Source of the DNA: Brevundimonas sp. 357
GTDB lineage: Bacteria; Pseudomonadota; Alphaproteobacteria; Caulobacterales; Caulobacteraceae
Direction: 5' to 3'
Assembly: GCF_003938605.1 (NCBI RefSeq)
Contig: NZ_RHWX01000006.1
Location: 124,001-188,000 of the forward strand
DNA length: 64,000 bases
The notes beneath the pieces are model-generated. The model did not search any database. It saw only the letters and a program-made list of their open reading frames with translations, and had not been told where the DNA came from. This document shows, one piece after another, positions 8,095 to 10,674 of this stretch (positions within the stretch are counted from its first letter, which is position 1; every line of letters begins with the position of its first letter). The position numbers and the translations under genes were made by a program.

Positions 8095-8766
8095 ATGCGT
8101 ATTCTGGTGGTTGAGGACGACGCTGAAGCCGCGACCGCCATGGTGCGCGGCCTGAGCGAGGCCGGGCACGAAGTCACCCATGCGGTGGACGGCGCCTTCG
8201 GCCTGCTTGAGTCGCAGAAGGGCGGCTACGACGTCTATGTCGTGGACCGCATGATGCCGCGCCTGGACGGTGTCGGCATGGTCGAGACCATCCGCAAGGG
8301 CGGCGACCAGACGCCGGTCCTGTTCCTGTCCGCCCTGGGCGAGGTCGAGGACCGCGTCACGGGTCTGAAGGCGGGCGCCGACGACTATCTGGTCAAGCCC
8401 TATGCCCTGGCCGAACTGGTCGCGCGGGTCGAGGCCCTGTCGCGCCGCCGCGAGACGGGCGGGGTCCAGACCGTGCTCAAGGTCGGCGACCTGGAGATGA
8501 ACCTGATCGCCCGCACCGTCCACCGCGACGGCCAGGAGATCGACCTGCAGCCGCGCGAGTTCCAGCTGCTGGAGTTCCTGATGCGCCACGCGGGCCAGTC
8601 GGTCACGCGCACCATGCTGCTGGAGAAGGTCTGGGAGTACCACTTCGACCCTCAGACCAACGTCATCGACGTGCACATCAGCCGCCTGCGCTCCAAGATC
8701 GACAAGGGTTTCGACAGGGCCATGCTGCAGACCGTGCGCGGTGCGGGGTACCGGCTGGAGGCGTAA
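8095..8766 (+). CDS. OmpR-family response regulator
   Basis: A 223-residue two-component response regulator. The receiver domain (residues 1-115) has the acidic pair Asp8-Asp9, phosphoacceptor Asp51 (VVDRMMPRLDG) and the conserved lysine in DYLVKPYA. The C-terminal winged-helix DNA-binding domain (about 130-220) carries the usual VTRTMLLEKVW and NVIDVHISRLRSKID motifs. The ATG at 8095 has a GGGAGG ribosome-binding site. Its partner kinase starts at 9238, but a DUF559 gene framed by inverted repeats separates the two. Confidence 0.93.
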   Translation: MRILVVEDDAEAATAMVRGLSEAGHEVTHAVDGAFGLLESQKGGYDVYVVDRMMPRLDGVGMVETIRKGGDQTPVLFLSALGEVEDRVTGLKAGADDYLVKPYALAELVARVEALSRRRETGGVQTVLKVGDLEMNLIARTVHRDGQEIDLQPREFQLLEFLMRHAGQSVTRTMLLEKVWEYHFDPQTNVIDVHISRLRSKIDKGFDRAMLQTVRGAGYRLEA

Positions 8767-8776
8767 GGCGCGCAAT

Positions 8777-8835
8777 CTTTCTCCCTCCCCTTCATGGGGA
8801 GGGTGGCCGGCGCAGCCGGTCGGGTGGGGAGGGCT
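8777..8835. repeat. Left inverted repeat of DUF559 unit
   Basis: A 59-bp sequence that is a near-perfect inverted copy of 9176-9232. It starts CTTTCTCCCTCCCCTTCATG, contains its own palindrome (CCTCCCC-TTCAT-GGGGAGG), and ends GGGTGGGGAGGGCT. The outer 27 bp and inner 14 bp match the right copy exactly; the middle differs slightly. It begins 11 bp after the response regulator stop. Confidence 0.9.
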
Positions 8836-8843
8836 TGCAAATC

Positions 8844-9236
8844 ATGGCGATCATCGCTCGAGCCCGCGCCATGCGAAAGGCGCTGACGCCACCCGAGGCG
8901 CGTCTGTGGGTGCAATTGAAGCTGTTGCGCGCTCAAGGGTTTCATTTTCGGCGGCAGGCGCCATTTCGCGGCTATTATCTCGACTTCGTCTGTTTTGACC
9001 AGCGCTTGGTCATAGAGGTGGACGGCGTCACCCACACGGTCGAGGCGCGGGCGAACAGGGACAGGGTGAGAGACGCGGTGCTGGCAGGCGAAGGGTTCAC
9101 GACGCTGAGATTCGACAACGCCGCCGTTCGCGATGATCTGGACGGCGTGATGGCGGGGATAATGGGCGCGCTTGAAGCCCTCCCCACCCGGTCGCTGCGC
9201 GACCTCCCTCCCCATGAAGGGGAGGGAGAAAGCTGA
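8844..9236 (+). CDS. DUF559 endonuclease-like protein
   Basis: A 130-residue DUF559 protein, a family with a PD-(D/E)XK/Vsr-like nuclease fold. The family hallmark is visible: ARAMRKALTPPEARLWVQLK, FRRQAPFRGYYLDFVCF (catalytic Asp), then LVIEVDGVTH (Glu and Asp) and a C-terminal RFDNAAV segment. The ATG at 8844 is preferred over a TTG at 8835, which falls in the left repeat. The last codons and the stop lie inside the right inverted repeat. Substrate and biological role of the family are not established. The repeat-framed setting between two partner genes suggests a mobile unit. Confidence 0.85.
   Translation: MAIIARARAMRKALTPPEARLWVQLKLLRAQGFHFRRQAPFRGYYLDFVCFDQRLVIEVDGVTHTVEARANRDRVRDAVLAGEGFTTLRFDNAAVRDDLDGVMAGIMGALEALPTRSLRDLPPHEGEGES
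9176..9232. repeat. Right inverted repeat of DUF559 unit
   Basis: A 57-bp inverted copy of 8777-8835 that begins AGCCCTCCCCACCCGGTCGC and ends GGGGAGGGAGAAAG. It encodes the C-terminus of the DUF559 protein. Its GGGGAGGGAGA also lies just upstream of the histidine kinase GTG start at 9238, so it may serve as that gene's ribosome-binding site. Confidence 0.9.
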
Positions 9237-9237
9237 A

Positions 9238-10674
9238 GTGAAGCTGCCCTCGCTCTTTCGACGGACGCCTTTCCGGCTGACGCTGCTGTTCCTAGCGCTG
9301 TTCGTGGCGACGGCCAGTGCGGTCCTGGCCTATGTCTATTTCGCCTCGGCGTCCGAGGCGCGGGCGCGGGCGGAGGCCAGCGTCAAGGCCGAGGTCGAGG
9401 GGCTGACGGCCGTCTATCGCACGCGGGGCCGCGACGCCCTGAATCAGGTGTTGGTCGAACGCACGCTGAAGGGCGGGCCCTACCTCTATCTGCTGATGGC
9501 GCCGGACCGCTCGGTCATTACCGGCAATGTCTCGGAATCGCCGCTGGATCCGCCCAGGGAAGACGCGCCGCCGTCGACCGCGCGCTGGGACGACTTCCGC
9601 CTGACCGATACGGACGAGGACGGCCGCGTGCGCCGTCGCGGGGCCATCGGCGTGGAGATGACCCTGTCCGGCGGCGAGCACCTGTTCGTGGGCGAGGACA
9701 TCGGCGACATAGAGGCCTATCTGGCGCGGCTGACCCAGGCCCTGTGGGGCGCCATGGTCATGGTGCTGGTGCTGGGCGTCGGCGGCGGACTGTGGATCAG
9801 CCGGGGCGTCGAGCGCGCCATGGCCGGTCTGAACCGCGTGGTGGCGGCGGTGCAGGAGGGCGACTTGAAGACGCGCGTCCCGATCCGCCACTCCGGCGAC
9901 GAGCTGGACGAACTGGCCGAGGGGCTGAACGGGATGCTGGACCGGCTGGAGGGCTCGATGGCCTCGATCCGCCACGCGGGCGACGCCATCGCCCATGACC
10001 TGCGCACCCCGCTGAACCGGATGAAGGCCAAGATGGAAGTCGCCCTGATCGACGCCGAGGCGGGGCGGACCTCGGGCGTCGACGCCCTCAGCGTGGCGCT
10101 GGACGAGGCGGACGCCCTGCTCAAGACCTTCAACACCGTCCTGGCCATCGCCCGGTTGCAGGCGGGCGGGGCGCCGGATCCCAAGATGTTCGACGCCGCT
10201 GATCTGGCCGCCGACATGGCCGAGCTCTACGAACCGGCGGGCGAGGACAAGGGGCTGGAGTTCGCCGCCGAGATCGAGAAGGGGCTGATGATCGAGGGCA
10301 ACCAGCCCTTCCTGGCCCAGGCGCTCGCCAATCTGATCGACAACGCCATCAAATATACGCCGGAGGGCGGGGCGGTGATGTTCCGCGCGCGCCGCCGTTC
10401 GTCGGGCGATGTGGAGTTTTCCGTCACTGACAATGGGCCGGGCGTACCGGACGAGGATCGCGAGCGCGTGCTGCAACGCTTCGTCCGCCTGGACAATAGC
10501 CGCACCGAGCCGGGGTCGGGCCTGGGTCTGTCGCTGGTGACGGCGGTGGCCGAGGCCCACGGCGGGCGCATCCAACTGGACGAGGGGCCGGGCGTCTATG
10601 ACGGGCGCGGGCCGGGCCTGCGCGTGGCTCTGATCCTGCCCGCCGCCAGCCGGGCGCTTGAGGCCGAGGCGTGA
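9238..10674 (+). CDS. Sensor histidine kinase (OmpR-type partner)
   Basis: A 478-residue membrane histidine kinase. It has an N-terminal membrane segment (about residues 13-34), a periplasmic sensor of about 135 residues, a second membrane segment (about 170-190), a HAMP domain, and a HisKA domain with phosphoacceptor His253 (AIAHDLRTPLNRM). The HATPase domain has the N box (NLIDNAIKYTPEGG), G1 box (VTDNGPGVPDEDR) and G2 box (GSGLGLSLV). The start is a GTG with an SD that lies in the preceding repeat. The stop overlaps the GTG of glnE. The stimulus is unknown. Confidence 0.92.
   Translation: MKLPSLFRRTPFRLTLLFLALFVATASAVLAYVYFASASEARARAEASVKAEVEGLTAVYRTRGRDALNQVLVERTLKGGPYLYLLMAPDRSVITGNVSESPLDPPREDAPPSTARWDDFRLTDTDEDGRVRRRGAIGVEMTLSGGEHLFVGEDIGDIEAYLARLTQALWGAMVMVLVLGVGGGLWISRGVERAMAGLNRVVAAVQEGDLKTRVPIRHSGDELDELAEGLNGMLDRLEGSMASIRHAGDAIAHDLRTPLNRMKAKMEVALIDAEAGRTSGVDALSVALDEADALLKTFNTVLAIARLQAGGAPDPKMFDAADLAADMAELYEPAGEDKGLEFAAEIEKGLMIEGNQPFLAQALANLIDNAIKYTPEGGAVMFRARRRSSGDVEFSVTDNGPGVPDEDRERVLQRFVRLDNSRTEPGSGLGLSLVTAVAEAHGGRIQLDEGPGVYDGRGPGLRVALILPAASRALEAEA

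Follow-up and report, generated by a model that had tools for sequence, protein, structure and literature searches.

Between a response regulator and a sensor histidine kinase, Brevundimonas sp. 357 carries a gene for a small DUF559 protein with inverted repeats on either side. Is this gene a settled member of the operon, or is it a mobile unit that travels with its own repeats? A preliminary description of the DNA had favoured the second reading and had likened the unit to REP-associated transposases. Pfam still lists DUF559 as a protein of unknown function, and no enzyme is known for some families of bacterial repeats, among them the CGTC REPs as these are described in PMC3733652. If each DUF559 protein has a cognate palindrome, then both the enzyme of the repeats and the function of DUF559 can be put to the test, using a 130-residue protein and an oligonucleotide of 60 bases. 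We analysed a 64,000-nucleotide stretch of the genome (contig NZ_RHWX01000006.1; hereafter the window) and followed its DUF559 unit into other genomes. Our best reading is that the system is a nuclease with cognate REPINs, RAYT-like in its logic and unrelated to the RAYTs in its enzyme.

The DUF559 unit in the window

The features of the locus are collected in Table 1. The regulator, DUF559 and kinase genes lie on the same strand, with a 1-base gap between the DUF559 stop and the kinase start, and the window protein matches the Pfam profile of DUF559 (PF04480) with 101.2 bits against a gathering score of 20.6. That a 130-residue DUF559 protein splits the regulator from the kinase is therefore borne out by the open reading frames and the Pfam matches.

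Table 1. Features of the DUF559 unit and the adjoining host genes, in window coordinates.
Feature	Position	Strand	Evidence
OmpR-type response regulator, host gene, upstream of the DUF559 unit	8095..8766	+	PF00072, PF00486
Left arm: head palindrome, second hairpin, G-rich tail	8777..8836	+	inverted-repeat comparison, DNA fold
Left head palindrome, type D, CCCTCCCC-TTCAT-GGGGAGGG	8783..8803	+	DNA fold; dispersed copies
Left second hairpin, GCA (GNA) loop closed by C-G	8805..8821	+	DNA fold, loop count
DUF559 CDS, predicted Vsr/EDxHD-like nuclease, 130 aa (start ATG 8844, stop 9234-9236)	8844..9236	+	PF04480 E 3.8e-29; structure model pLDDT 86; Foldseek to 3hrl, 3r3p, 1vsr
Right arm, inverted; contains the codons for the DUF559 C-terminus and the AG-rich stretch ahead of the kinase start	9175..9232	-	sequence, inverted-repeat comparison, DNA fold
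Right second hairpin, GCA loop, stem unlike the left one	9190..9204	-	DNA fold, loop count
Right head palindrome	9205..9227	-	DNA fold
Sensor histidine kinase, host gene, downstream of the DUF559 unit (start GTG 9238, end 10674)	9238..10674	+	PF00512, PF00672, PF02518

Each window arm is about 60 bp long. Folded as DNA, it forms two hairpins, the head palindrome with a stem of 8-9 bp and the second hairpin, with a G-rich tail after them. The outer blocks (8777-8809 and 9200-9232) are 94 per cent complementary over 33 nt and the inner ones (8821-8836 and 9175-9190) 100 per cent over 16 nt. The left and right heads match each other. The second hairpins, which lie between the matching blocks, differ in sequence and both pair (CCGGC-GCA-GCCGG on the left, GGTCGC-GCA-GCGACC on the right). 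The inverted arms are thus real, and the wording of the preliminary description, near-perfect repeats of 57-59 bp, was too strong. A search of Rfam with five loci gave no match up to E = 0.1.

Arms beside DUF559 genes in other genomes

We looked for similar arms in a sample of 61 genomes of the genus, 57 of which contain DUF559 (217 matches). From these we took 145 distinct loci, not counting two duplicates (L051 = L001, L184 = L064); the inverted-repeat count covers 144, as L033 is missing one flank. An arm pair was called when the best ungapped inverted repeat between both flanks scored at least 14. By this measure 110 of the 144 loci have inverted arms and 34 do not, compared with 0/144 when one flank was shuffled and 23/144 when the partner flank was taken from another locus. 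Repeats in direct orientation also reach 14 at 49 of the 144 loci, as expected given that the heads are themselves palindromes.

Across the class, 63 of 192 genomes had a DUF559 match. Forty of these were picked from the top of the list, one locus each, leaving out G163 and two genomes of the window's genus; 22 of the 40 loci reach a score of 14 and 18 fall below it (shuffled 0/40, swapped 3/39). We also examined named loci from a genome scan, taking the best 80 of 588 relatives of a type-E/G/H query, and found arms at 58 of the 80 (shuffled 1/80, swapped 13/79). At least nineteen of these 80 loci are from Brevundimonas, and some probably duplicate loci of the genus sample. Within the best 80 of 588, the arm-bearing records include three from Planctomycetota, two from Prevotella and one from Betaproteobacteria; a fourth Planctomycetota, an Anaerolineales and a Chthonomonas record score below 14. 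The proposed search for other DUF559 units with arms was therefore productive, and the arms that these genes bear match each other in a type of their own. The DUF559 gene, like that of a RAYT or REPtron, has members of a dispersed family of palindromes on both sides.

The type-E pattern occurs in 11 of the 192 class-wide genomes. Four of these matches (G000, G004, G063 and G070, all among the 63 DUF559-positive genomes) were judged by eye to be real arms, too few to weigh. The other seven resemble G-rich runs by eye and were discarded.

Arm type follows the DUF559 protein

The arms fall into eight families (A-H), defined by head or tail pattern. Eighty-seven of the 145 genus units have both arms of one type, 49 were typed from one arm or from unlike arms and nine are untyped, so that 58 of the 145 are not typed alike on both arms. 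We built trees from the DUF559 domains with the arms excluded; these use only 106 columns and have many open forks. On the tree of 86 units with both arms typed alike, arm type requires 9 changes, against a mean of 46.2 and a minimum of 42 in 200 shuffles, and the host genome needs 79. When one-arm labels are included (118 units), arm type requires 11 changes, the least possible being 7, and the host genome 108; shuffled arm types average 65.8, and 0 of 200 shuffles are as low as 11. Both trees omit L033 and L051, and the 86-unit tree also omits L184. Shared flanks group the units into 62 loci, of which five groups mix arm types. Taking one unit per locus (51 typed) gives 10 changes for arm type, compared with a shuffled mean of 22.7 and a minimum of 20 in 200. 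Arm type follows the clade of the DUF559 protein, not the host genome.

The second hairpin has a regularity of its own. Among arms of types A, B, D and E, 124 of 146 second hairpins have a GNA triloop, all 124 closed by C-G, and the complementary TNC loop occurs in none of the 146; the loop is thus polar, being found on one DNA strand. Control hairpins of the window have GNA in 0 of 29 cases and TNC in 1 of 29, and the gene-less type-A arms of the Brevundimonas sp. 357 genome have GNA in 16 of 25. Of the 54 units with a hairpin in each arm, 47 have left and right stems that differ and yet both pair, which is partly by construction since the script looks for stems. Hairpins of the form d(GCGNAGC) are unusually stable in DNA. 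The C-G-closed GNA loops point to a folded DNA strand, and from the sequence pattern we read a folded single DNA strand as probably being under selection.

Dispersed palindromes in the genome

A search with the 21-bp type-D head, allowing up to three mismatches, gave 35 strand matches in the Brevundimonas sp. 357 genome (G000). They lie at 20 places, eighteen of them outside the unit; three of these eighteen match only at three mismatches, and at least one is probably unrelated. The reversed control pattern has no match in this genome, and the recurrence of the head is not chance. A pattern scan confined to the window was weak (4 matches, equalled by 4 of 100 shuffles). Eight type-D places are arranged as four inverted pairs with spacings of 111-130 bp, which have the same anatomy as the unit and contain no gene; the remaining places listed are mostly single heads. 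A second palindrome family in the same genome, type A, has 48 heads. Twenty-five type-A arms fit the head-plus-tail pattern, sixteen of them as eight pairs, and the seven pairs measured are 144-170 bp long. These gene-less pairs, at about 135-170 bp, are REPIN-like: in four type-D and eight type-A cases two inverted REP palindromes enclose a short spacer, and the pairs are dispersed. A search for solo repeats elsewhere in the genome, which the preliminary description had suggested, thus found the arms both solo and as REPIN-like pairs.

The genome has a single DUF559 match, of type D, and its 48 type-A palindromes stand without any type-A DUF559. They may be relics, or may be mobilised by something else.

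We then compared palindrome counts with units across the 61 genomes, having removed the units' own arms; the statistics ignore the relatedness of the genomes. Dispersed type-A and type-D palindromes are commoner in genomes with a unit of the same type (A, P = 0.0095; D, P = 0.0068), and in the 51 genomes of at least 90 per cent completeness the association has P = 0.014 for A and P = 0.051 for D. Type-E counts are not significantly associated with type-E units (P = 0.12), and they associate with F units too (P = 0.033). In one genome (G041), which has no DUF559 match, there are 25 sites of type A and 18 of type E. As this genome lacks DUF559 and G000 has type A without a type-A gene, dispersal need not be current or DUF559-dependent. 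Another genome (G024, 99 per cent complete) has no DUF559 match and zero palindromes of types A, D and E.

The DUF559 protein as a predicted nuclease

A structure model of the window protein (pTM 0.79) matched, in Foldseek, NGO0050 (3hrl), the catalytic domain of I-Bth0305I (3r3p, E = 4.3e-5) and Vsr (1vsr, E = 9.7e-4), and a sequence search also matched I-Bth0305I (E = 2.2e-4). Conserved E, D, E, D, H and D residues, which we take to be catalytic, are kept in 135-144 of the 145 DUF559 domains. The modelled fold, together with these acidic and histidine residues, places the protein in the Vsr/EDxHD superfamily as a predicted endonuclease core. We know of no strand-joining activity in nucleases of this fold, so movement would need host repair. 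An internal stop interrupts 8 of the 147 DUF559 domain records that were fetched.

The EDxHD family of nucleases has been described (PMC3943268). In Caulobacter, VsrA has a DUF559 domain; according to PMC12907096 it is needed for, and induced in, the SOS response of a methylase mutant, and it was proposed there as a mismatch-repair enzyme. A role in anti-phage defence was also considered and rejected, as PADLOC returned only weak partial matches that do not extend over most of a model (DpdF, 58 of 1078 positions, E = 2.5e-4; PDC-S37, E = 6.6e-4).

The junction and the movement of units

The regulator-kinase junction was read in 50 of the 61 genomes; of the others, nine have a strong regulator match and two do not. 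Sixteen junctions hold a DUF559 unit, 20 are plain (2-24 bp) and 14, judged by eye, hold another element of 130-162 bp with inverted ends, four of these being type-E-like. Three loci whose regulators are 97-99 per cent identical to that of the window (L054-L056) have 12-bp junctions. Empty junctions had been predicted for relatives of a mobile unit, and a DUF559 gene that was always present at this site, with no repeats elsewhere, had been named as the contrary outcome; the unit is present at 16 of 50 junctions and the repeats are dispersed. Many relatives have lost the junction unit or never had it. On the DUF559 protein tree a single branch has the junction units to one side of it, so they look like one old insertion, not a fresh one, that has since been lost or exchanged in places; the window unit is an old, patchily kept resident.

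In ten genomes the junction has a different, GAGTGGCGAGTGG-type inverted repeat (L060, L062, L068, L069, L078, L085, L088, L089, L090, L092), which differs from the DUF559 arms.

Most close pairs of units share their flanks, which indicates that the gene is for the most part inherited without moving. Of the units fetched, L193 and L194 (genome G052) are the only within-genome pair more than 67 per cent identical in protein. They are 92 per cent identical over 496 bp, lie about 2.8 kb apart in opposite orientation, and the arms mark the exact limits of their homology; an internal stop interrupts one copy. This gene-bearing unit has been duplicated within one genome. L103 matches L122 and L125 only from head to head. 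The pair L022/L028, which seemed to be a unit with unrelated flanks, was not counted as movement because the downstream flanks are homologous again about 1 kb away.

The gene-less pairs were followed at ten sites in six close relatives, eight of the sites being readable (all except L201 and L220). The L212 pair is absent from G051, G043 and G007, which have no head there, and G045 has a different pair; in G000 the sequence TTCATC lies on both sides of the filled site. The L003 pair is absent from G043, again with no head, and an imperfect 14-bp duplication flanks the filled site. Where G000 has the L203 pair, G051 has a solo head. The L218 site (L307, L312, L327 in the relatives) holds a type-A pair in G000 and a type-D pair in G051, and both G031 and G043 have a solo type-A head there. 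In G059 a type-A pair stands in place of L002. Remnants of 27-40 bp mark L215 and L223 in G043 or G031. The interior of L215 is inverted in G031 (L325) relative to G000 (94 per cent identical when reverse-complemented, 62 per cent as is), with the heads unmoved, and is not inverted in G007. We saw no constant target duplication at the gene-less sites in relatives or at the duplicated units. The small gene-less pairs vary, and the gene-bearing units seem to move rarely. The idea of a small mobile unit accordingly survives in part: the recurring arms, the plain junctions and the in-genome duplication speak for it, while the window copy is not fresh and units with a gene seem to stay where they are for the most part.

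Comparison with known systems

According to PMC8049555, RAYTs are transposases that replicate REPINs, occur in single copy and are passed on vertically; PMC3733652 also describes RAYT and REPIN traits. As in that system, the DUF559 gene lies between REP-type palindromes, there are dispersed gene-less inverted pairs and solo remnants, and the gene is inherited mostly in place. Unlike it, DUF559 has the predicted fold of a Vsr/EDxHD nuclease rather than an HUH tyrosine transposase, and each arm has two hairpins with GNA loops. The HUH Y1 profile of RAYT-type transposases (Y1_Tnp) has 0 matches in G000 and is matched in one of the 61 genus genomes. The gene that marks a RAYT or REPtron is thus absent from G000, and its REPIN-like pairs now have no RAYT there to disperse them; a past RAYT is possible.

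The CGTC REPs, by the description in PMC3733652, occur mainly in Alphaproteobacteria, mostly as head-to-head pairs, and apparently without a dedicated transposase. They resemble the DUF559 arms in host class and pairing and differ in having one stem of 8-9 bp with a loop of 4-5 bases where the DUF559 arms have two hairpins. The first report of rhizobial RIMEs placed them in a two-component regulatory system, to go by a paper title cited in PMC2873474; they too are described as short intergenic mosaic repeats of Alphaproteobacteria, found at the same kind of site, and unlike the DUF559 units they have no attached gene named in that description. The DUF559 protein shares its fold and conserved acidic and histidine residues with I-Bth0305I and Vsr, and differs from Vsr and the EDxHD homing endonucleases in having little beyond the catalytic domain and a gene set between its own palindromes. 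It belongs to the DUF559 family with NGO0050 (3hrl) and the PRK09767 model, and differs from the latter in scoring 61 bits against a cut-off of 218. A literature search, which did not extend to most subscription papers, found no report tying DUF559 to palindromic repeats.

Discussion

Any explanation has to account for the anatomy and breadth of the units, the co-inheritance of arm and protein, the presence, absence and inversion of pairs, and the one gene-bearing duplication within a genome. We would give an even chance to the reading in which the unit is a nuclease gene with cognate DNA hairpins, DUF559 cuts the arms, host repair joins the ends and gene-less pairs spread in REPIN fashion. 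In this scheme DUF559, as a small endonuclease of the Vsr/EDxHD fold, would recognise the arms by their head palindrome, GNA hairpin and G-rich tail, most likely on a single strand that has folded in the course of replication or repair, and would nick or cut there. Cutting and repair together would copy and reshuffle short gene-less arm pairs (inverting and trimming them) and slowly disperse them, and the DUF559 gene itself would mostly stay in place, like a RAYT. We infer all three of its key steps, namely the binding and cutting of arms by DUF559, the folded strand as substrate and repair as what completes the move; that the nuclease drives the movement of the repeats is likewise how we would interpret the comparisons.

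Homing would use the same enzyme differently. A free-standing DUF559 would cut solo heads, and gap repair from an arm-flanked template would copy a pair or a whole unit in, with a head at each end. I-Bth0305I, one of the closest solved relatives by structure and by sequence, is a homing enzyme; some relatives have a solo head where G000 has a pair (L218 in G031 and G043, L203 in G051), and the units L193/L194 and L103/L122 start and stop at heads. A solo head, however, may be the remnant of a deleted pair, some relatives have neither pair nor head at L212 and L003, and heads of about 20 bp are short for homologous repair, which leaves homing possible and, in our view, unlikely. DUF559 could otherwise be a host repair or SOS nuclease like VsrA, with arms that only regulate or end its transcript and that resemble repeats landing in many intergenic places. 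The SOS role reported for the Caulobacter protein (PMC12907096) agrees with this, as does the inheritance of most close units with their flanks. Chance landing, on the other hand, would not yield inverted, like-typed arms that track the protein clade over the host, nor an in-genome duplicate with both ends at arms, and the GNA loop is polar on one strand; we think this explanation quite improbable. We give very little credence to the last alternative, in which another enzyme moves all the palindromes and DUF559 rides between two of them. The transposase search covered the Y1 family only, and G000 has type-A pairs without a type-A DUF559, both of which would suit a passenger. Against it, the DUF559 family has like-typed arms in many lineages, and arm type follows the DUF559 clade.

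If a nuclease with cognate palindromes is indeed the answer, the DUF559-palindrome pair may represent a transposase-free analogue, so far undescribed, of the self-spreading palindromes known in bacteria, and a nuclease can drive REPIN-like populations with no transposase involved. A broader version, which we hold tentatively and at somewhat below an even chance, is that DUF559 is a second, independent REPIN solution: widespread Vsr-fold nucleases, each with a cognate GNA-hairpin palindrome and no transposase, would cut the folded strand, host repair would join it, and short non-coding DNA would be dispersed and remodelled. DUF559 proteins would then be the missing enzymes of several transposase-less repeat families in Alphaproteobacteria and other phyla, and the DNA damage attributed to Caulobacter VsrA would have an alternative reading.

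At the window locus the unit may also touch its host operon. The right arm codes the end of the DUF559 protein, and the AG-rich end of the arm precedes the kinase start, as the preliminary description had noted. The AG-rich stretch directly before the kinase GTG (within 9204-9240) therefore comes from the inserted arm, so the DUF559 unit may set the translation of the kinase.
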